64,000 bases of DNA from Eubacterium sp. (GTDB lineage: Bacteria; Bacillota; Clostridia; Lachnospirales; Lachnospiraceae): positions 124,001 to 188,000 of the forward strand of contig JAFUVQ010000060.1 in the NCBI GenBank assembly GCA_017477505.1. The letters are read 5' to 3'. Made by a program: the position numbers and the translations under genes. How positions within the stretch are numbered: position 1 is the first letter of the stretch; the number at the start of each line of letters is the position of its first letter. Below are positions 19,468 to 28,517 of this stretch, in pieces. The notes below the pieces were generated by a model. The model was given only the letters and a program-made list of their open reading frames with translations, did no database searches and had not been told where the DNA came from.

Positions 19468-20292
19468 TTAGTGTTTTCGTCCGTAATGAATTGCATCCAC
19501 AGGACATGCCTTTATACATTTACCACAATGTATGCATTCTTTGTCGCAGACTTTCTTCGTATCCATCTGACATACTTTTATGCAGGCATTGCAATGTATG
19601 CACTTCGTCCCGTCTACTTTGATTCCGAAGAATGCTATTGGGTTGAAAAATGAATATATAGCTCCCAACGGACAGATGAATCTGCAGAATGCTCTGTAAC
19701 AGAACATGCAGATAAGAAGCACCGCTGCAAGCACAAAAACCTTCCACGTAAAAAGCAGTCCCAGAAGCTGTCTCAGTCTGCTGTCATAAAGCACATTGGG
19801 AATTCCTGCTGCCAGTGTTCCCGCAGGACAGATATATTTACAAAATCCCGGAGCAAGTTTAACCATAGGAATCAGCACTACAAACAGTGCCAGGATTATA
19901 TATTTAAGATATGATAAAATACTTGTCACTCTCCCCTTGGGAATCTTGGGAAATGGCATCTTATCCAAAAGATCCTGCAGCAGGCCAAAGGGACAGAGAA
20001 AACCGCATATGAATCTTCCCAAAAAAAGTCCCATCAGTATAAGTGTACCAAGCATATAATAAGGAATCTTGTACTTTGAAGAAACAAGCGCCATCTGCAT
20101 ACTTCCGAGAGGGCAGGACAAAACTGCCCCTGGGCATGAGTAACAGTTAAGCCCCGGAGCACACAGTCCTTTTACATTTCCCTGATAAATCTTACCATCA
20201 AGAAAGCCTCTGATATTGCAGTTATAGAGAACAGCTGTAATAAGCTGTGTGTATCTTCTCTTTGAAATACATTTGAATCCTTTTTCAGTCAT
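19468..20292 (-). CDS. NapH-like 4Fe-4S polytopic membrane protein
   Basis: A 274-residue membrane protein of the NapH/CcoG-like electron-transfer family. About four to five hydrophobic segments alternate with cysteine motifs: CAPGLNCYSCPGAVLSCPLG, GFLCPFG, CKYICPAGT and CRFICPLGA. Two C-terminal ferredoxin clusters follow, CIHCNACIKVCQMD and CIHCGKCIKACPVD. It probably moves electrons across the membrane to thiol or quinone partners. I chose the ATG at 20292 because it lies 5 bases after the stop of the 48-residue CXXC gene, with TAGG-type sequence upstream; the longer start at 20325 lies inside that gene. The operon also encodes a TlpA-like thioredoxin, suggesting extracellular disulfide reduction. 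Confidence 0.85.
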   Translation of the reverse strand: MTEKGFKCISKRRYTQLITAVLYNCNIRGFLDGKIYQGNVKGLCAPGLNCYSCPGAVLSCPLGSMQMALVSSKYKIPYYMLGTLILMGLFLGRFICGFLCPFGLLQDLLDKMPFPKIPKGRVTSILSYLKYIILALFVVLIPMVKLAPGFCKYICPAGTLAAGIPNVLYDSRLRQLLGLLFTWKVFVLAAVLLICMFCYRAFCRFICPLGAIYSFFNPIAFFGIKVDGTKCIHCNACIKVCQMDTKKVCDKECIHCGKCIKACPVDAIHYGRKH

Positions 20293-20297
20293 GGTCT

Positions 20298-20444
20298 TTA
20301 ACCTATTCCCATGCATTCGTAACATATCTGAACAGCCTTATTCTTTACGTCCCGGAAACCGCCATCACAAAGTCCCAGAATGAGTAACACCGCTCCAAGA
20401 AGCAGGAATACAATTCTTATGATCATTTTCGAATAACTTTTCAT
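20298..20444 (-). CDS. CD1871A family small CXXC membrane protein
   Basis: A 48-residue protein that automated length cut-offs would miss. It has one hydrophobic helix (IIRIVFLLLGAVLLILGL) and a C-terminal motif ICYECMGIG, where CYEC is a CXXC. This matches what I remember as the CD1871A family CXXC motif-containing protein of Clostridia, usually next to NapH-like 4Fe-4S and TlpA-like genes, exactly as here. TGGAGAA precedes the ATG by 5 bases. It starts 11 bases after the thioredoxin gene and ends 5 bases before the Fe-S gene, so the three are tightly co-translated. It probably relays electrons to the extracellular thioredoxin (inference). Confidence 0.85.
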   Translation of the reverse strand: MKSYSKMIIRIVFLLLGAVLLILGLCDGGFRDVKNKAVQICYECMGIG

Positions 20445-20455
20445 AAAATTCTCCA

Positions 20456-21196
20456 TTACTCTCTGCAGGCATCTATAGCACTTTTATAAGCCTTATACTG
20501 CATATCCGCGCCACGGGAACCCAGGAATACAGCCTTGACAACTCCTTTATTGATTAAAACCGTATATGGGATTCCCGATGAAGGATAATATGTTGTTATC
20601 CTTCCGTCCAAGTCATATCCGACATTGAATGAATAACCCAGCTCGTCTATAAAATTGTCAACCTTTTCCCGATCCTCATACCTGTTTATGCATATAATCT
20701 CAAGATTATCATAGCCATCAGCTTTGAGCATATCAAATGCAGGAAGCTCCGCTACACAGGGACCGCACCATGTTGTCCAGAAATTGATAAGAACTATCCT
20801 GTCATCATAGTCTGAAAGATGGAATGTCCCGCCTCCTCTAAGATCTACGGTGAAGTCAGGAGCCACATCACCTTCAGACAGTTCCTGGGGCATACCTGTT
20901 CCGGTATCCGCATCCGGTCTTTTAGCAAATGATGGCTGCTCAGTCGTCGTCCCCGTCTCATCCTTGGAAACATCGTCATTTCCGGCAGTATCCCTGGTCT
21001 TATCCGCATCCCTGTCCTTCTTTTCAGTCTCTTCAGAAATCGCTTCCGTAGCCTCAGTAGTCACTTCTGTCTCAGCCTCGGTAACCTCAGCATTTGTCGT
21101 ATCTTCCATTGTCGCATTCTCACTTCCGCAACCAGCCATAAAAAGCATGGATGCAGCAATCACAACCGCAGAAAGCTTTAATAATCTTTTCCTCAT
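20456..21196 (-). CDS. TlpA-like extracellular thioredoxin lipoprotein
   Basis: A 246-residue lipoprotein. The signal peptide ends in the lipobox FMAGC. A ~90-residue low-complexity Thr/Glu/Asp-rich linker follows, then a TlpA/ResA-type thioredoxin domain (about 110-246). That domain contains the active site FWTTWCGPCVAELP and the cis-proline segment SSGIPYTVLI. It should reduce or exchange disulfides outside the membrane. It is the first gene of the operon with the CD1871A-like and NapH-like genes, which could supply electrons. GAAAGGAAG precedes the ATG. Confidence 0.92.
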   Translation of the reverse strand: MRKRLLKLSAVVIAASMLFMAGCGSENATMEDTTNAEVTEAETEVTTEATEAISEETEKKDRDADKTRDTAGNDDVSKDETGTTTEQPSFAKRPDADTGTGMPQELSEGDVAPDFTVDLRGGGTFHLSDYDDRIVLINFWTTWCGPCVAELPAFDMLKADGYDNLEIICINRYEDREKVDNFIDELGYSFNVGYDLDGRITTYYPSSGIPYTVLINKGVVKAVFLGSRGADMQYKAYKSAIDACRE

Positions 21197-21245: not shown

Positions 21246-21294
21246 TAGTCCATAAGTGTAAGTGCCAGGTTTCCATTTAATCCATAAGTGTAAG
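21246..21294. repeat. Short direct duplication of a gene 3' end
   Basis: TARTCCATAAGTGTAAG occurs at 21246-21262 and again at 21278-21294, 32 bases apart with one mismatch. The second copy contains the stop codon and last codons of the adjacent small membrane protein gene; the first is a copy just beyond the stop. It looks like a local duplication. Confidence 0.55.
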
Positions 21295-21909
21295 ACCCCA
21301 GTTGATCCAACACCAGCGGACGTCCTTACCTTCAGGTGTTATTATATGCAATATTTCTTCTTCATCCAGAAAGAAATCCGCAGCTTCTATTCCCATCCTT
21401 GAAGATACCCATTCGGGTGCTGCACGTTCCGGTTTATCCACTTCATAATCATATATTCCTATATGCTGTGACCAGGTTTTCTCATCCTCTTTAATCCATA
21501 TCGGCTTATGGCGGCCAAAGCTTCCGATACGCCAGAACAGGATAACTATTTCGTCTTCTTCGTCGTGATCTATATCTCCTATGAAGTAATCAGATACCAG
21601 CCACCCGTCTTCTGTAGTCCATACCGGCGCCACGTCATCACATGAAATCGTAAAATTCTTATCCTTGAGATCGACAAAAGCATCCTCAACTCTGATTTCT
21701 CTTTCGGGGTCTTCATTTCTCCCGGGACGGTCTTCAAATGTATGTTTTTCCGACTTCTCTTTCCAACTTATCCATTTAGGAAGAAATGTGCCTCTCTTAT
21801 ACAGGAATCCATATAGTAACACACATAGCAAAACGGCTACTGCTATGCACAGTAGCCATATTGCTGTTTTAAAAATGATTTTTCCTGTATCAGTTCTATT
21901 TACTTTCAT
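21277..21909 (-). CDS. Membrane-anchored protein with calcium-loop-like motif, last gene of the rSAM operon
   Basis: A 210-residue protein of unknown function. After a short basic start (MKVNRTDTGK) comes one transmembrane helix (about 13-35) and then an extracellular domain of about 150 residues. It contains FIGDIDHDEEDEIVILFW, an Asp-rich loop typical of FG-GAP/VCBS-type calcium-binding repeats. The ATG at 21909 overlaps the 3' end of the DUF3160 gene by 14 bases, indicating translational coupling; an upstream in-frame start at 21960 would lie deeper in that gene. Being fourth in the operon suggests a role with the DUF3160 protein. Confidence 0.72.
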   Translation of the reverse strand: MKVNRTDTGKIIFKTAIWLLCIAVAVLLCVLLYGFLYKRGTFLPKWISWKEKSEKHTFEDRPGRNEDPEREIRVEDAFVDLKDKNFTISCDDVAPVWTTEDGWLVSDYFIGDIDHDEEDEIVILFWRIGSFGRHKPIWIKEDEKTWSQHIGIYDYEVDKPERAAPEWVSSRMGIEAADFFLDEEEILHIITPEGKDVRWCWINWGLTLMD

Positions 21910-24835
21910 ATCTGAAACTCTTGGTCCAGGCTTCCTGCTTTGGCTGGCTCTCCCGGTCATAGTTATATGTACCGTCCTCCCGCAGTTCTATTCCTAGCAT
22001 CTGTCTCCACTTGGAATCAGTAAGCCTGTCATTTATCGGCTGCTGGAACTGATAAAATGAATATACGCCACCCCAGGCAACCTTCTTAACGCCATCGACC
22101 TCGATTATTACCATAATTGTATTTATCCTTCCGGTTCCAAGTTCAAGACATGCACCGTTCGGATCTGTTGCAACGTCGGCAACTATTGCAGCAGGGAATT
22201 CCTCTGTCGTAAAATAATCCTTGCCTGCTTCTTCTTTATTTACTTCCTGCCAGAAATGTTCGATCTGTCCGCCATAACTTCTGATAAATTCAAACTCCTC
22301 ATCAGTAGGAAGTACATTCGTAAGTTCTTTCTCCGATATAGCCTGAAGCTTTGTTGTTATATCCGCAAGAAGTGCAAGATTTTCTTTATCTGCATCTCGT
22401 AGCGCATCATAATGCTGAAGTCCTTCTGAAGTAGCCTTAACAAGTGCAGTGAGTCTTGCATATACCTCCGGTTCAGGTTCAACATATCCTCTGTCATCTC
22501 TCTCAGGGATAGGTCCATCGCCCATCTCGGCCATCATCTGCTTGGAGTAAAGAATTGTATCATGCTTTAGCTCTGTATAACTTCCAAGGAATGTAACAAG
22601 GTTCTTCTTTCTCCATTCCTGTGACTGCATAAATACCGGATATCCTTCTCCTCTTTCCTCAAGTACAGGTCTGAGAGTATTCAGCCATTCAGAATAAAGA
22701 CTAGAATTCCATGTACTGTCCGGAGCCTCTTTGACCATAGTCCTGAGACTCTCCATATTTTCCGAATAACCCTTATAATCTTCGACACCCTGCTCCTTCA
22801 GTATATCCAGTGCCACATCTGAACCCATGGCAGCAGGAACATCCAGTGCATTTGGAAGCATTCTGGCCTGATTTGATGAATTCTCTTTTACTCTCGAATA
22901 ACAGAGATTCTGGAAGATAGCCTCGTCTATGGAGAATCTCTGTCCCATAAACCTAAAGCCGTTTATCTTTGCTTCTTTTTCTTCATCAGTATCGTCAACC
23001 AAAACAACTACAGAATTAATCTTAGGTGCCGGAAGCTGTCCTGTAAGATCGTGGAATTCCGTCCAGGCCTTATCATTTCCCGGAAGCTTATCAGCAGTTA
23101 TATCCGCACCATATACCTTATCGATAATAGGTCTGTACTCATAATAACCGCAGTCATCAGATGCTCCTGCAAAAAATGAAGTGATAGTATATATCTCTTC
23201 CCATAAAGGAAGTGTATCATTATCCATGGCAAGTGTCATAAGAAGGGCGGATCTGTCCTGATCTTCATCTTTTCTTGCGAAATTCCTTCTTCCGTACCAC
23301 ATCATTGTCTTGAAATATTTCTTGAGGTTCTCGTCAGTATCATAATATCCTCTCGGAATATACTGGCTGTAATCCTCCATGTTTTCCGGATCATCAAAAA
23401 GCGGTGACTGAGTAACTCCTCCTGCCTGCTCTATAAGATCAAGTTCTTTCTGTACAACATCCTGAACCTCGGCAGGTACCTCGGCATCCGGATTTGCAAG
23501 CTTATAGCCTACTGTAAAGAATGCAAGATTTCGCCATGCCGCAAGCTCCCACTCAGTTCCCTTCAGGACATCATACTGAGCTTTCGATTTCTGCTGCATA
23601 AGCCGGCTCATTTCCGTAACATCATCTATCAGATAAGTTTTCTCTGTATTTTTAAGAACATGAGCAAAGTAAAGATGATAGGTATGCATTATTGAGTCAA
23701 CTGTTACAAATGCAGGTCTGTAATCATATCTGAGGTACTCGTAACCCTCAAAAAACTCACAGTCCCATCCATCAGTCACCACGAACTGATTCTTAAGGAG
23801 CATATCCTTTTCGTCTTCAGGCATATAATCAATAAGATCGTAATTATCAAGATTTCCCAGATTATCCGATGCTGTATTCGGCACGGACGCCTCAATAGGC
23901 TTATATGAAACAAGCATGTAATCATTGATGATAGAAGGCCTCGGCATATAGGCGACCTCATGGGTGAAGTCCTTATCATCTCCCTTTTCCTTACCTTTAT
24001 CTGCCTTTTCTTTCTCCTGGGCTCTCTTTATGACTTCGTCCTCAGTTATGACATTTCCTTCCTCATCGACATATTCGCCTTCAGCATTTGTACTTGCCTC
24101 CTGGAGAATACTCTCGATATCCGGTTTGTCCTTCCGGAAGGTTCTTACAGCGACAATTCCGACGATTATCGCAAGCACAACAGCGGCTGCTATGGAAATG
24201 AAGAAAAGAGTCTTTGTCTTCTTGTCCATTCCCTGCTTCTTCGGATTATCTCTTCTGGAATCATCCCGCCTTGGCGGATCATTTCTCCTGGCATTCTGCT
24301 GAGGTCTTTCATTACGTGGTCTGTCATTACGTGGTCTGTCATTTCGAGGCCTATCATTACGTGGCCTGTCTGCCTGATAATCTCTTGTCTCAGCACCCTG
24401 ATGCATACTGTTCTGTCTGCCGTACCGGTCATCCTGACGGTAGCTGTCCTGCCCGCCATACTGATCATTCTGTCGGTAGCTGTCCTGCCCGCCATACTGA
24501 TCATTCTGTCGGTAGCTATCCTGCCTGCCGTACTGATCATCCTGTCTGTAGCTGTCCTGCCTTCCGTACTGATCATCCTGCTGAACGAATGCAGAATCAT
24601 CGGCAGGAGCAAACGCTGAATCTCCGCCAGTGGCATATTCATTTGCCCCCGTTTGATCAAATGCTGAATCTCCGGCATATCCGAAGACAGAATTGCCTGA
24701 TGGCGCACTATATCCTGTATTTCCGGAAAATGCAGAGTCAGCCGTATTTCCGGCAGTCCCTATAAGCTTAGAGCCACAGACCGGGCAGTAGGCCGCATTA
24801 TCCTCTACTTTACTTCCACAGGTTGAACAAAACAT
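21896..24835 (-). CDS. Zinc-ribbon, single-pass membrane DUF3160 protein
   Basis: A 979-residue protein. It opens with a zinc ribbon (FCSTCGSKV and YCPVCGSKL), followed by a low-complexity region with tandem repeats (four to five of QYGRQDSYRQND type, then RNDRPRND repeats). One transmembrane helix (about 205-228) follows. The large extracellular domain fits DUF3160 (FVTVDSIMHTYHLYFAHVLK, RNLAFFTVGYKLA, YTITSFFAGASDDCGYYEY). DUF3160 has no known activity to my knowledge. The ATG at 24835 is chosen because GAGGAGGA precedes it and the zinc ribbon starts there. It follows the radical SAM gene by 11 bases and overlaps the next gene. Confidence 0.82.
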   Translation of the reverse strand: MFCSTCGSKVEDNAAYCPVCGSKLIGTAGNTADSAFSGNTGYSAPSGNSVFGYAGDSAFDQTGANEYATGGDSAFAPADDSAFVQQDDQYGRQDSYRQDDQYGRQDSYRQNDQYGGQDSYRQNDQYGGQDSYRQDDRYGRQNSMHQGAETRDYQADRPRNDRPRNDRPRNDRPRNERPQQNARRNDPPRRDDSRRDNPKKQGMDKKTKTLFFISIAAAVVLAIIVGIVAVRTFRKDKPDIESILQEASTNAEGEYVDEEGNVITEDEVIKRAQEKEKADKGKEKGDDKDFTHEVAYMPRPSIINDYMLVSYKPIEASVPNTASDNLGNLDNYDLIDYMPEDEKDMLLKNQFVVTDGWDCEFFEGYEYLRYDYRPAFVTVDSIMHTYHLYFAHVLKNTEKTYLIDDVTEMSRLMQQKSKAQYDVLKGTEWELAAWRNLAFFTVGYKLANPDAEVPAEVQDVVQKELDLIEQAGGVTQSPLFDDPENMEDYSQYIPRGYYDTDENLKKYFKTMMWYGRRNFARKDEDQDRSALLMTLAMDNDTLPLWEEIYTITSFFAGASDDCGYYEYRPIIDKVYGADITADKLPGNDKAWTEFHDLTGQLPAPKINSVVVLVDDTDEEKEAKINGFRFMGQRFSIDEAIFQNLCYSRVKENSSNQARMLPNALDVPAAMGSDVALDILKEQGVEDYKGYSENMESLRTMVKEAPDSTWNSSLYSEWLNTLRPVLEERGEGYPVFMQSQEWRKKNLVTFLGSYTELKHDTILYSKQMMAEMGDGPIPERDDRGYVEPEPEVYARLTALVKATSEGLQHYDALRDADKENLALLADITTKLQAISEKELTNVLPTDEEFEFIRSYGGQIEHFWQEVNKEEAGKDYFTTEEFPAAIVADVATDPNGACLELGTGRINTIMVIIEVDGVKKVAWGGVYSFYQFQQPINDRLTDSKWRQMLGIELREDGTYNYDRESQPKQEAWTKSFRYESK

Positions 24836-24846
24836 ATTATTCCTCC

Positions 24847-25929
24847 TCAAAAAAGCACATCCTTAAAACAAACCTTCTGGTGATCATCATCATAGTCCCA
24901 GCTATGGTATGAACCACCACGACACCATTTCTTCTCAGGGCAGCTGCTGCACTTCTCGTTTAGTGTATCCAGCGGAGTCCTGAAAATCTTAAATTCATCT
25001 TTCCATATATCGGTGAAGCTTCTGTCATGGATATTTCCCTGGATTGTTCTTTCGTTCCTGGGAACATCAAGACAAGCACCCACATCTCCATTTACAAAAA
25101 TTCCGGCTACGTATATCCCCGCATTACAGAGGAAATACCAGTCCCTCACTTCTGCCTCATATTCTTTTCCAAGAAAATGACAGCAGGAGTATTCAACCGG
25201 AATCTTCTGTTCTCTCTTCTCCTTGATAAACTTCATAAGCCGGATATTGTCCTCCGGTGTGAGAAGCATCTCCGGATGTTCAAGCGCCCTTCCAATAGGT
25301 TCGATGCCGGTGAGGCGCCATTCATTTATATCTACATTGTCAAATATATCATATAGGGCATCCAGTTCGACGATATTCTCATGGTTCACCACAGTCGTAA
25401 CCATGATGCTGCCGATCCCGCCGGCATCTATCATATTCTGAATACCATCCATGGCTTTCTTAAAACCATTCGGAAATGACCTGTATCTGTCATGAGTATC
25501 AGGAAGTCCGTCTATACTGACCGATATTCCGCGCATTCCCGTGTCCCGGAGCCTTTCGGCCACACTCTTAGTGATAAGAGTCGCATTGCTGGTCATGCCC
25601 CATTTCATGCCGAGACTCTGTATATATCCGGTAAGCTTAAAGAAATCCTTGTACATAAGGGGTTCGCCGCCGGTCAAGGCTATATAAACTCCGGTTCCAA
25701 AGTTTTTCTTGACCTCATCCAGTATAGCCATATATTCTTCCACAGGAAGTCCGTCCGGCATATCCACGCTGCAGCCGCTGCCGCAATGGAAACAATGCTC
25801 ATTGCATTTCAATGTCAGCTCAAAGAACAGCTTCCGAAGCTCAGGTTCTTTACAAAGCTTTGCCTGATGCCCTGCAAGAATATCGAGATTCTTTGTCTTA
25901 ATCTCATTTTTAGTCAAAGCTTTAGTCAT
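24847..25929 (-). CDS. Radical SAM/SPASM enzyme, putative lipoprotein/peptide maturase
   Basis: A 360-residue radical SAM protein. The [4Fe-4S]-SAM motif is CNEHCFHC near residue 42 in the family context FELTLKCNEHCFHCGSGC, followed by the TGGEPLMYKDF glycine-rich motif. A C-terminal SPASM-type domain supplies further cysteines (CNAGIYV, GACLDVPRNE, CSSCPEKKWCRGG). SPASM enzymes mostly modify ribosomal peptides. The HCGS-x-C context recalls the Bacteroidales rSAM/lipoprotein system (TIGR04133-like, from memory). The ATG at 25929 has CGGAGG 8 bases upstream and is preferred to the ATG at 25947, which overlaps the stop of the lipoprotein gene. The preceding gene encodes a small lipoprotein with two VYGPP motifs, the likely substrate. 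Confidence 0.87.
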   Translation of the reverse strand: MTKALTKNEIKTKNLDILAGHQAKLCKEPELRKLFFELTLKCNEHCFHCGSGCSVDMPDGLPVEEYMAILDEVKKNFGTGVYIALTGGEPLMYKDFFKLTGYIQSLGMKWGMTSNATLITKSVAERLRDTGMRGISVSIDGLPDTHDRYRSFPNGFKKAMDGIQNMIDAGGIGSIMVTTVVNHENIVELDALYDIFDNVDINEWRLTGIEPIGRALEHPEMLLTPEDNIRLMKFIKEKREQKIPVEYSCCHFLGKEYEAEVRDWYFLCNAGIYVAGIFVNGDVGACLDVPRNERTIQGNIHDRSFTDIWKDEFKIFRTPLDTLNEKCSSCPEKKWCRGGSYHSWDYDDDHQKVCFKDVLF

Positions 25930-25946
25930 CTTAGAGACCTCCGGCA

Positions 25947-26198
25947 TTATTTCTCAAAATCCTCCGGAGGACCGTAAACATCAGGAAGCTCATTGTCCTC
26001 AACTTTGGTAGTAGCCTCAGTGGTTACTTCCTCAGTTGTTTCTGAATTCTCCTGCCAGGTTTCCTCCTGAACTGTCATGTCCTGGGGCGGTCCGTAAACT
26101 GTAGGCGCGTCATTATTATCCGCTCCACAGCCGGCTGTTCCGAACAGCGTACCGGCCGCAAGTCCTATAAGCATAGCCTTCTTTGGATTAATCTTCAT
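25947..26198 (-). CDS. Small lipoprotein with two VYGPP motifs, putative rSAM substrate
   Basis: An 83-residue secreted lipoprotein. It has a basic N-terminus, a hydrophobic stretch and lipobox GTAGC with Cys24. The mature part is acidic and Thr/Glu-rich and carries VYGPPQD at residues 34-40 and VYGPPED at 74-80, the second close to the C-terminus. Repeated short motifs in a small protein next to a SPASM radical SAM enzyme are typical of modified precursor peptides; Tyr or Pro of the motif would be the modified residues (inference). GGAGGGA precedes the ATG. It is the first gene of a four-gene operon. Confidence 0.82.
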   Translation of the reverse strand: MKINPKKAMLIGLAAGTLFGTAGCGADNNDAPTVYGPPQDMTVQEETWQENSETTEEVTTEATTKVEDNELPDVYGPPEDFEK

Positions 26199-26241: not shown

Positions 26242-26270
26242 ATTTTACTATCCTTTAATGAAAATTACAA
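26242..26270 (-). promoter_or_regulatory. Promoter of the VYGPP lipoprotein / rSAM operon
   Basis: On the minus strand TTGTAA (26265-26270), a 17-base spacer and TAAAAT (26242-26247) lie about 45-70 bases upstream of the lipoprotein ATG and just after the terminator of the larBCE operon. Confidence 0.6.
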
Positions 26271-26271
26271 G

Positions 26272-26298
26272 AAATAAAGGGGCTGAACGATCAGCCCC
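26272..26298 (-). terminator. Terminator of the larBCE operon
   Basis: A perfect 8-base stem GGGGCTGA / TCAGCCCC (26279-26298) with a 4-base loop. On the minus strand it is followed by TTTATTTC. The stem begins at the larE stop codon itself. Confidence 0.85.
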
Positions 26299-27082
26299 CT
26301 CTTCTGTAACCCATAATATCAAGTTCAACGCCTTCAAAGCCAAGTCCGGTGAGATGGTCAATGACTTCGCTCATAACATCATTTTTCATTATCCTGGATA
26401 TTTCTTTTGCGTCTACCTCTATCTTTGCATCCTTACCTCTCATACGGACTCTCACGTGTCCGGTCACAAATTCTTTGATTTTCTCTTCACCCTGTTCGAT
26501 CATCTGTAACTTGGGGACAGTTATTTCCTCACCATACGGAATCCTCGTTGCAAGGCAGGCATTCTCCGGTTTATTCCAGACCTGAAGCCCTAGCTCTTTA
26601 GCAAGGTCTCTGACATCATTCTTATGAAAGCCTGCTTCCAAAAGGGGGCTTATGATCTTCAGCTCGGCGAGCGCTTTCATTCCCGGACGATAATCCCCTT
26701 TATCATCAACATTTGTACCATCTATTACATACGGGATTCCTCTTTCCTTCGCCACATCAAGCAGTCCCTGCATCAGAAGAAGCTTACAGTAATAGCATCT
26801 CAATTTGGAATTCTCCCTTACCTTCTTATCAGCGAGTGTATCCTTCTCTAAAATGATATGCTCAATGCCTTCATCCCTGCAGAACTCCTGTGACATTTCA
26901 AAATCAGAACTGAAAAATGTGGGGTGTTTCGCCGTTACAGCTATACATTTATCACCCAATGTATCATGAGCCACTTTGAGTAGCAGTGCCGAGTCAACTC
27001 CTGCTGAAAAAGCGACCACTACACTTCCCAGTTCTCTGAGATGTTCTTTAAGCTTATCTGTTTTTTCCTGTAATGTGGCCAT
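26291..27082 (-). CDS. larE: ATP-dependent sacrificial sulfur transferase LarE
   Basis: Completes the nickel-pincer nucleotide cofactor by donating sulfur to the dicarboxylated pyridinium made by LarB. A 263-residue PP-loop enzyme with the nucleotide motif VAFSAGVDSALLLKV near the start. The WNKPENACLATRIPYG segment holds the cysteine (about residue 174) at the position of the sacrificial Cys of L. plantarum LarE. A further RCYYCK pair lies near residue 95. The ATG overlaps the larC 3' end by 29 bases in another frame. It ends at a strong terminator. The substrate enzyme LarA is not in the window. Confidence 0.93.
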   Translation of the reverse strand: MATLQEKTDKLKEHLRELGSVVVAFSAGVDSALLLKVAHDTLGDKCIAVTAKHPTFFSSDFEMSQEFCRDEGIEHIILEKDTLADKKVRENSKLRCYYCKLLLMQGLLDVAKERGIPYVIDGTNVDDKGDYRPGMKALAELKIISPLLEAGFHKNDVRDLAKELGLQVWNKPENACLATRIPYGEEITVPKLQMIEQGEEKIKEFVTGHVRVRMRGKDAKIEVDAKEISRIMKNDVMSEVIDHLTGLGFEGVELDIMGYRRGG

Positions 27083-28517
27083 GTAACCCCTCCACTGATC
27101 TTACTTCATTAAGAGACATTTCCTTTTCATCTGCTATCCTTCTGAGATCCTCGAATTCCGCCTTGCTTCTCTCGACTCCGTAACCTGAAACCTTCTTGAT
27201 ACGGACCTGCCCCAGTTCAGTATCTGCCGTTTCAATTTCCCTGTCCAGAACATATCTTTTTGTGACAGCTTCGCGAACCCCTATGGTAGTTGTATACTTG
27301 AAGATAAGCTTCAGAATTTCTTCTTTCTTTTCATTATTGCAAATGACACGTATCATGGTTCCCGGTCTTGATTTCTTCATCCCCACAGGAACTGTAAAAA
27401 CTTCAAGTGCCCCACCTTCAAAGAGCTTATCCATGGCATAGCCTATCTCTTCACCGGTCATATCATCAACATTGCAGGAAAGCTGAGTCACTGTATCCGT
27501 ACTTCCTTCACTTTCACCCAGCATAACTCTTACACAGTTAGCCACTTCAAAATCCTTCATTCCCATACCGTACCCGATAGCTTCAGTCCTCATGACGGGC
27601 ATAGGTCCGAATTCATCTACAAACCTCCTGAGAAGCGCCGCTCCCGTAGGCGTACAGAGCTCGCTCTTAATACTTCCGCCATAGGATGGGATTCCTTTCA
27701 GGATATATGCTGTTGCAGGCGCCGGTACCGGAAGAATCCCGTGCGCACACCTTACCTGTCCGCTGCCCACATGAACCGGAGAGGCAACAACTCTGTCTGC
27801 GCCTATCTCTTCCATCAGCATCGCAACTGCAGTCACGTCAGCTATGGCATCCTTCGTACCTACTTCATGAAAATGTATTTCTGTTACAGGCACCCCGTGG
27901 GCATGGCTCTCCGCCTCTGCTATATATGAATAAACTGTAAGTATATCCTCTCTCACCTTTTCCGAAACATTCATATGATCACGGACAATATGCTCTATGT
28001 CATGCATACTGCTGTGGTGATGGTGATGATGGTGGCCATGCTCATGATCATGGTCGTGATTGTGGTCATGGTCATGATCGTGGCTGTGCTCGTGGTCATG
28101 GCTGTGCTCATACTCGTGGTCATGGTCATGGTCGTGGTCATGCTCATGCTCATGCTCGTGCCCATGCTCATGCCCGTGGTCATGGCTGTGCTCATACTCG
28201 TGGTCATGGTCATGGTCGTGGTCATGCTCATGGTCATGATCGTGGCTGTGTTCATGGTCATGGTCGTGCCCGTGCTCATGGTCGTGTCCGTGGTCATGGT
28301 TATGCTCACCCTCGACTACTCCGTCTACAATTACTCTCATATGTGAACCCGTGATCCCGCACTTTACCGACTTCTCAAGATTATAAGTCACGCCGGGTAT
28401 ACCCAGGTTATTAAGCTTATCAACAAAAGCCTGCGGATCGGGAAGCAGTTCCAGAAGTGCCGCAGTAAGCATATCTCCTGCAGCTCCCATGCCGCAATCT
28501 ATATATAAAGTTTTCAT
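27054..28517 (-). CDS. larC: Nickel-pincer cofactor biosynthesis protein LarC with giant His-rich insert
   Basis: Inserts nickel into the pincer cofactor (CTP-dependent cyclometallase in the L. plantarum system). A 487-residue single reading frame, so no ribosomal frameshift is needed, unlike larC1/larC2 of L. plantarum. It begins TLYIDCGMGAAGDMLTAAL. Residues about 70-170 are an insert made almost only of His, Asp and Glu (HDHEHGHDHDHEHSHDHDHE-type repeats ending in seven His), far larger than in most homologues and probably nickel-binding or nickel-storing. The C-terminal part has LSCNVDDMTGEEIGYAMDKL and VPVGMKKSRPGTMIRVICN. It overlaps larB by 4 bases (ATGA). Confidence 0.93.
   Translation of the reverse strand: MKTLYIDCGMGAAGDMLTAALLELLPDPQAFVDKLNNLGIPGVTYNLEKSVKCGITGSHMRVIVDGVVEGEHNHDHGHDHEHGHDHDHEHSHDHDHEHDHDHDHDHEYEHSHDHGHEHGHEHEHEHDHDHDHDHEYEHSHDHEHSHDHDHDHNHDHDHEHGHHHHHHHSSMHDIEHIVRDHMNVSEKVREDILTVYSYIAEAESHAHGVPVTEIHFHEVGTKDAIADVTAVAMLMEEIGADRVVASPVHVGSGQVRCAHGILPVPAPATAYILKGIPSYGGSIKSELCTPTGAALLRRFVDEFGPMPVMRTEAIGYGMGMKDFEVANCVRVMLGESEGSTDTVTQLSCNVDDMTGEEIGYAMDKLFEGGALEVFTVPVGMKKSRPGTMIRVICNNEKKEEILKLIFKYTTTIGVREAVTKRYVLDREIETADTELGQVRIKKVSGYGVERSKAEFEDLRRIADEKEMSLNEVRSVEGLHGHITGKNR
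27995..28310 (-). repeat. Low-complexity His/Asp/Glu codon repeat inside larC
   Basis: A 300-base tract of CAT/CAC, GAT/GAC and GAG codons (plus-strand ATG-GTC-type triplets), with longer near-perfect internal duplications of about 80-90 bases containing the HEYEHSHDH motif. Such tracts are prone to length change by slippage or recombination, so insert length may vary between strains. Confidence 0.8.

Follow-up and report, generated by a model that had tools for sequence, protein, structure and literature searches.

A YGxP motif carried by lipoproteins and unrelated proteins accompanies TIGR04133-like radical SAM/SPASM enzymes

Among the known systems closest to the one reported here are the PlpX-type spliceases, radical S-adenosylmethionine (SAM) enzymes with a SPASM domain. 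According to published work, PlpXY excises tyramine at an XYG site, naturally MYG and LYG, with a mass change of -135.0757 Da (C8H9NO) and without needing a leader (PMC10533398), PlpX is assigned to IPR026482 and works with PlpY, a truncated RiPP recognition element (RRE), protease inhibition being mentioned (PMC11002830), and the spliceotide products are protease inhibitors (PMC10373908, PMC11117315). In the first of these sources, tags in FtsZ were accepted in two of 16 placements, both with PIRPGYGLPI, and the tags LYGLPI and YGVVFP were tried and not accepted (PMC10533398). Here we analyse a 64,000-nucleotide stretch of Eubacterium sp. (contig JAFUVQ010000060.1, positions 124,001 to 188,000; hereafter the window), in which a small lipoprotein with two VYGPP motifs is encoded directly before a radical SAM/SPASM enzyme whose best NCBIfam match is TIGR04133, a model paired with the lipoprotein model TIGR04134. 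A literature search outside whose reach most subscription journals lay returned no paper on TIGR04133, TIGR04134 or 'radical SAM-associated putative lipoprotein', none in which YGPP appears together with radical SAM, and no biochemical proof of modification in the enzyme family. Searches of the literature from 2024 on yielded nothing on these YGPP lipoproteins.

The locus was read as four minus-strand genes, with spacings of 17 and 11 bases and then an overlap, the first of which encodes the lipoprotein with its two VYGPP motifs, and this reading of the open reading frames (ORFs) agrees with a preliminary description of the window made from its letters alone. The XYG target of the spliceases occurs twice in the lipoprotein, as VYG, and the two motif copies differ in synonymous codons, indicating that the motif is kept at the protein level. 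The lipoprotein belongs to no Pfam or NCBIfam family, and nothing of weight was found for it in PHROGs. The enzyme presents Radical_SAM (84 bits) and SPASM (36 bits) domains in Pfam, and its TIGR04133 match reaches 263.5 bits, below the curated cut-off of 425, other models scoring 141 (AhbD), 135 (NirJ2) and 110 bits (TIGR04103, with a cut-off of 725). The third gene encodes a DUF3160 protein (707 bits) with an N-terminal Zn_Ribbon_1, and the fourth a protein with only sub-threshold matches in Pfam and NCBIfam.

Alignment of eight lipoprotein homologues revealed no variation in either VYGPP motif or in ten of the signal-sequence positions leading up to Cys24, at a mean column identity of 49%, the signal sequence being conserved as MKINPKKAMLIGLAA..GC. 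A close enzyme was present in 10 of 41 relatives, at 68-83% identity besides the window's own (100%), and a lipoprotein profile (A2) matched strongly (E <= 8e-16) in exactly the same 10, the best value in the next genome being only 5e-5. Profile A2 was built from eight lipoproteins of these 10 genomes and the enzyme profile A1 from nine enzymes, which match by construction, so that the independent information resides in G001, G007 and the 31 genomes without the pair. Across 61 genomes of the genus, the lipoprotein profile (E <= 1e-6) detected 15 and the enzyme profile (E <= 1e-40) 18, all 15 lying within the 18. The enzyme of G046 is adjoined by a diverged lipoprotein with four VYGPP motifs, the sole enzyme of G042 is a paralogue that adjoins an IYGPPP zinc-ribbon protein, and in G060 a pattern search located the tail of the lipoprotein (29 codons) at a contig end. 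Both G060 and the more distant G196 (locus L119) had given a first impression of enzymes without a partner, which the pattern search overturned. In G053 (G053:C103; L082, L108) a wreck of the locus persists, with the signal sequence directly before the C-terminal SPASM half of the enzyme, and the YGPP repeats and the catalytic core were apparently lost together, in one deletion.

With G042 excluded, an intact close enzyme (49-100% identity) occurs in 16 genomes of the genus, and at least two VYGPP matches to the DNA pattern GTNTAYGGNCCNCC, which makes no use of lipoprotein profiles, were found in all 16, compared with 2 of the 45 others; the corresponding Fisher value of 7.5e-13 is no true probability, since the genomes share ancestry. 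In total the pattern yields 64 matches in the 16 genomes and 15 in the 45, and its backward version, which is not a rate-matched control, yields 39 and 89. In 11 of the 16 genomes the lipoprotein gene directly precedes that of the enzyme, and in four (G001, G021, G045 and G060) it lies about 6 kb upstream of it, on the same contig. In G007, five lipoprotein paralogues, some with C-terminal extensions and the variants VYGAP and VYGPD, are scattered on other contigs, together with a sixth that lacks YG. Given this placement at a distance or on other contigs, the enzyme is probably able to act on its substrates in trans. The lipoprotein and the radical SAM/SPASM enzyme constitute a real pair, beyond chance.

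The association extends well outside the genus. Matches to the enzyme (E <= 1e-40) were identified in 21 of 299 genomes of the family, three of them TIGR04103-like only, and of the remaining 18, the window and 14 others encode a protein with YGxP or YGPxP within 1.5 kb. The motif proteins of G196 are unlinked, a DUF805-YGPP protein and a zinc-ribbon protein residing on other contigs, and G264 (L126) has a lipoprotein that reads LYAPPP. A further homologue (G117, L127 1495-2532) lacks CxxxCxxC, has no YGPP protein within 1.5 kb and is apparently decayed. Named genomes were then queried with 13 enzymes, and the best 80 of 454 confirmed loci, headed by the L119 enzyme, were retained; among these, L186 repeats G011 and L195 repeats G002. 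A same-strand neighbouring ORF with YG.P or YGP.P was present within 1.5 kb at 73 of the 80 loci (238 copies), compared with 12 (13 copies) for the reversed motif, and 45 loci had an ORF with two or more copies, against none for the reversed motif. Five further controls gave 8 to 26 loci, of which 0 to 2 had two copies, and YG.P by itself was seen on the opposite strand at 7 of 80 loci and beside 2 of 20 other SPASM enzymes, none of these with two copies. The matches at L162 and L211 lie in unrelated-looking proteins and are probably due to chance. The residue before the tyrosine is Val in 132, Leu in 34 and Ile in 11 of 206 motif copies. Together with the counts in the genus, these results bear out the enzyme-lipoprotein pairing proposed in the preliminary description.

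The proteins that carry the motif are nonetheless diverse, and the YGPP lipoprotein was consequently rejected as the sole substrate. Besides lipoproteins with one to seven copies, they comprise DUF805 membrane proteins with YGPP tails (PF05656 in L136, L121, L201 and L231), dockerin proteins in Ruminococcus-type loci (PF00404 in the three tested), twin zinc-ribbon proteins with IYGPPP, IYGPMP, IYGPKP or VYGSPM between the ribbons, and small lipoproteins with YYGCPN. One rumen Oscillospiraceae record (L140, 47-4979) contains eight consecutive YGPP/YGPxP genes upstream of the enzyme, with a dockerin in both of the two tested, and at L128 (1333-3295, G341) the enzyme match runs through an in-frame TAA and is flanked by two tiny lipoproteins ending in YYGCPNS..KKLNL. 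The preliminary description had held that enzymes regularly found without a YGPP lipoprotein would speak against the pairing. On this point the outcome is mixed: a paralogue clade of this kind does exist, but its members are accompanied instead by a zinc-ribbon protein with IYGPPP or IYGPxP. What stays constant beside the enzyme is thus the motif and not the lipoprotein. On another contig, the window's own genome has a further enzyme of this kind, with 42% identity, next to a VYGSPM zinc-ribbon protein (G000:C40; L031, L103).

A quick phylogenetic tree, from which 21 of the 80 family rows and four others were left out, groups the window enzyme with true TIGR04133 members in a TIGR04133-like clade (support 99), apart from a TIGR04103-like clade (support 100), and joins both clades to the exclusion of other SPASM enzymes (support 93), the outgroup branches being long. 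Its label 'lipo_YGPP' was assigned by default, and L162, L189, L190 and L192 bear it without an adjoining motif protein. Scored with the profile of the enzyme family, C-terminally extended TIGR04103-like enzymes reach 214-222 bits, other TIGR04103-like enzymes 171-186 and 17 other SPASM enzymes, the number obtained from 20 control loci, 62-189; among the enzymes tested, the extended TIGR04103-like ones are thus the nearest outside the family. We take TIGR04103, the nif11-class peptide radical SAM maturase 3 family, to be the same family as IPR026482. The CxxxCxxC motif and H342 are present at all 80 family loci, C53 at 78 and C249 at 76. C53 and C249 were considered as marks of YGxP enzymes and rejected, given that a Nostoc TIGR04103 enzyme has neither and yet its precursor contains LYGLPP. 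The enzymes in three metagenome bins, recorded as planctomycete (L182), Thermoguttaceae (L184) and Anaerolineaceae (L191), are very like one from Bacillota, and wrong binning of these records is possible.

Co-inheritance, conservation of the motif, the change of carrier around a constant motif and the kinship of the enzymes are observed directly in these data. From the motif and this kinship we infer that the pair comprises a substrate and a maturase acting on X-Tyr-Gly before export, with splicease-type tyramine excision as the most likely reaction, and we regard this as somewhat more likely than not. The SPASM enzyme would recognise X-Tyr-Gly-(x)-Pro in the cytoplasm, probably without a leader, and would alter the tyrosine-glycine site, present twice as V-Y-G-P-P, tyramine excision leaving a ketoamide in its place. 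The modified lipoprotein would then be exported, lipidated at Cys24 and displayed at the surface, where two Val-ketoamide-Gly-Pro-Pro sites could serve as surface-held electrophiles of a protease-inhibiting kind. With Val, Leu or Ile before the tyrosine, the P1 place would be taken by an aliphatic residue. Cellulosomes contain serpins with dockerins, to which the dockerin carriers would correspond. The protease-inhibitor role is conjectural.

Several observations weigh against this interpretation. No motif was found within 1.5 kb at seven of the 80 loci (L166, L176, L180, L189, L190, L192 and L205), of which L166 and L180 start less than 130 bases from a contig edge, some 12 loci with a single hit are expected by chance among the 80, and the pairing counts are uncorrected for shared ancestry. 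The last cysteine of the SPASM CX2CX5CX3C is replaced by Ser, Ala or Gly at all 80 family loci, and the TIGR04103-like enzymes compared retain this fourth cysteine, the Nostoc enzyme lacking C53 and C249 as noted; with a different set of iron-sulfur (Fe-S) ligands, the chemistry may differ from that of TIGR04103-like enzymes. The heme-pathway models AhbD and NirJ2 rank directly after TIGR04133 on the window enzyme. By eye, and with no PlpY query used, no small conserved gene that could represent a PlpY-like partner was seen beside the window enzyme or its relatives. This and the cysteine set speak against an identity with the PlpX-type reaction. A repeat-like YG.P or YGP.P ORF is missing on either strand at 7 of 11 TIGR04103-like loci, one more locus (L132/L225) having a chance ORF only. 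Finally, proline is not known to be required by PlpXY, YGVVFP tags being listed, though not accepted in FtsZ (PMC10533398).

The site could also be the substrate of another reaction. A bond between the tyrosine ring and the side chain at position +2 would produce a three-residue Tyr-Gly-X cyclophane, and hence small rigid loops. Such links belong to known SPASM chemistry (triceptides, WGK-type links), and the central glycine, the constant spacing and the proline that occupies position +2 in 186 of 206 motif copies would suit them; this same position nevertheless varies (A, M, V, C, T, L and I, among others), Ala and Pro beta-carbons would be unusual partners, and the nearest relatives are TIGR04103-like, and we consider a cyclophane unlikely. 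Oxidation, epimerisation or dehydrogenation of Tyr or Gly, or cleavage without rejoining, would accommodate Fe-S ligands unlike those of TIGR04103-like enzymes and the second and third ranks of AhbD and NirJ2. We hold such a change to be unlikely, since it does not predict a run of prolines after YG, which is a feature of PlpXY tags such as PIRPGYGLPI (PMC10533398). That the enzyme has some other substrate, YGPP being a structural or binding motif that merely lies nearby, appears very improbable: it agrees with a literature devoid of biochemical proof for the enzyme family, but the motif accompanies the enzyme across phyla and on carriers of unrelated kinds, and genomes with the enzyme, G007 and G196 among them, contain the motif at unlinked sites as well.

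The preliminary description had gone further, proposing that the four genes form a single lipoprotein maturation pathway in which the DUF3160 and fourth proteins act outside the cell on the lipoprotein. The genes are co-directional and closely spaced, and all eight genomes of the genus with DUF3160, out of 61, also carry the enzyme (p = 4.4e-6 if genomes were independent). The window and G023, however, are the only cases in which DUF3160 adjoins the enzyme, and it is missing from 8 of the 16 enzyme genomes. A small membrane gene, judged similar by eye, follows DUF3160 in all eight genomes, so that the two travel as a pair of their own, found beside the enzyme in two of eight; DUF3160 was rejected as a core member on this account. 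Nothing shows that either protein acts on the lipoprotein, and a four-gene pathway is decidedly unlikely. A functional link between DUF3160 and the enzyme is possible, and the ancestry of one clade explains their sharing equally well. We retain substrate and maturase, acting through the X-Tyr-Gly site, as the preferred explanation of the pair.

The features of the locus are compiled in Table 1. The enzyme was taken to start at the ATG that follows GGAGG, another ATG further upstream, at 25947, overlapping the lipoprotein stop, and the fourth gene overlaps the DUF3160 gene with either of its starts. A promoter that the preliminary description had placed before the lipoprotein gene does exist as a hexamer match, but it carries no weight, because such sites are no more frequent in the region than shuffled sequence leads one to expect. 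The terminator-like stem after larE makes a separate transcript for the lipoprotein operon plausible, and no more.

Table 1. Features of the lipoprotein-enzyme locus, in window coordinates.
Feature	Position	Strand	Basis
83-aa lipoprotein, likely substrate	25947-26198	minus	ORF, lipobox, homologue alignment
Lipobox Cys24, predicted lipidation site	26127-26129	minus	sequence; invariant among 8 homologues
VYGPP motif 1 (VYGPPQD)	26085-26099	minus	codons gtt tac gga ccg ccc
VYGPP motif 2 (VYGPPED), near C-terminus	25965-25979	minus	codons gtt tac ggt cct ccg
TIGR04133-like radical SAM/SPASM enzyme (360 aa), predicted to mature YGxP proteins	24847-25929	minus	domains, tree, cysteine set
DUF3160 membrane protein with zinc ribbon at the N-terminus; neighbour, probably outside the core	21896-24835	minus	
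Small membrane protein, fourth gene; neighbour, probably not core	21277-21960 (likelier start inner ATG 21909)	minus	
Terminator-like stem, larE/lipoprotein-gene interval	26276-26301	minus	4 found vs 3.6 +/- 1.9 expected
Promoter-like hexamers, 9/12 consensus	26242-26270	minus	13 found vs 11.0 +/- 3.6 expected; weak

Upstream of the lipoprotein gene, between larB and larE, the window encodes a LarC (27054-28517, minus strand) with a very long insert rich in His, Asp and Glu (repeats of the type HDHDHEH...), perhaps a nickel-binding linker. After the operon (19468-21196, minus strand) come genes for a ResA/TlpA-like lipoprotein, a 52-aa membrane ORF and a NapH-like polyferredoxin, an order that is also present in G023 (L034) and suggests a membrane redox module.

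Among known systems, the SPASM enzymes of the TIGR03913/DUF1843 'GDL' loci are related, scoring 163-199 bits against the family profile, and three of the six peptides read there (L287, L288) present Tyr-Gly near the N-terminus (MLYGGAM, KPYGVAI and QPYGAGI), the others having Tyr-Ala or Tyr-Met; they differ from the window in having no proline after YG. A 2022 study by Scott et al. in Chem, titled on beta-amino acid 'peptides and proteins', may already contain part of the present finding. The PlpX-type spliceases, and TIGR04103 enzymes generally, share with the window a SPASM enzyme and an X-Tyr-Gly site that is often followed by x-Pro, with several sites per substrate possible. The window locus differs from them in that its substrate would be a lipoprotein and in lacking a Nif11 or NHLP leader and an adjoining peptidase-transporter. 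Proteins with KYGYP or KYGVP repeats adjoin four extended TIGR04103-like enzymes, L222, L224 and L226 (three of 11 TIGR04103 loci) and L134; no KYGxP-repeat protein lies beside the extended L130 and L132 or the shorter TIGR04103-like enzymes. On a Nostoc plasmid, a locus bearing the annotation nif11-class maturase 3 encodes a Nif11 precursor that ends in ALYGLPPELF, and a 71-aa ORF stands behind the enzyme.

The resemblance to TIGR04133/TIGR04134, which the preliminary description had pointed out, holds: a SPASM enzyme of the same clade stands beside a lipoprotein with YGxP close to its lipid anchor. Bacteroidales enzymes at L209 (551 bits), L210 (539) and L206 (457) exceed the TIGR04133 cut-off, a deltaproteobacterial one at L203 (379) falls below it, and the lipoproteins of L209 (110 bits), L210 (76) and L203 (79) are true TIGR04134 members (cut-off 39.8), each with YGxP. 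Annotated pairs likewise read SCYGMPEN in Treponema saccharophilum and CEYGSPHA in Parabacteroides distasonis, and in an order-wide sample TIGR04134 was found in 18 of 149 genomes, at 29 places, 24 of which have YGxP and none the reversed motif. The TIGR04134-type lipoproteins of L206, L212, L215, L273, L277, L279 and L285 have the lipobox Cys directly before YGxP (ACYGxP), where a splice would alter the lipidated residue itself. The window differs in that its enzyme scores under the cut-off and its lipoprotein has no TIGR04134 match, nor did any of 21 relatives in a run whose control was silent, the same search finding members elsewhere. Its relatives bear two to seven VYGPP copies in an acidic chain, and in most of the TIGR04134 proteins read a single YGxP precedes a stretch resembling CarboxypepD_reg (sub-threshold in Pfam).

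The enzyme and motif described here constitute a widespread and real system close to two known kinds, TIGR04133/TIGR04134 and the spliceases. A single motif resembling characterised splicease sites now unites TIGR04133/TIGR04134, named by number and neighbourhood, with a lipoprotein family that has no model. More tentatively, and with less confidence than in the window pair itself, leader-free YGxP tagging might operate across phyla, with ketoamides in ordinary cellular proteins, namely surface lipoproteins and DUF805, dockerin and cytosolic zinc-ribbon proteins, acting as protease-inhibiting or covalent-binding sites, which would give TIGR04133 and TIGR04134 a first function. If so, backbone ketoamides would reach membrane, secreted and cytosolic proteins, and not secreted peptides alone; were the reaction to differ from that of the spliceases, the family would still represent motif-driven enzymes acting on unrelated carriers.

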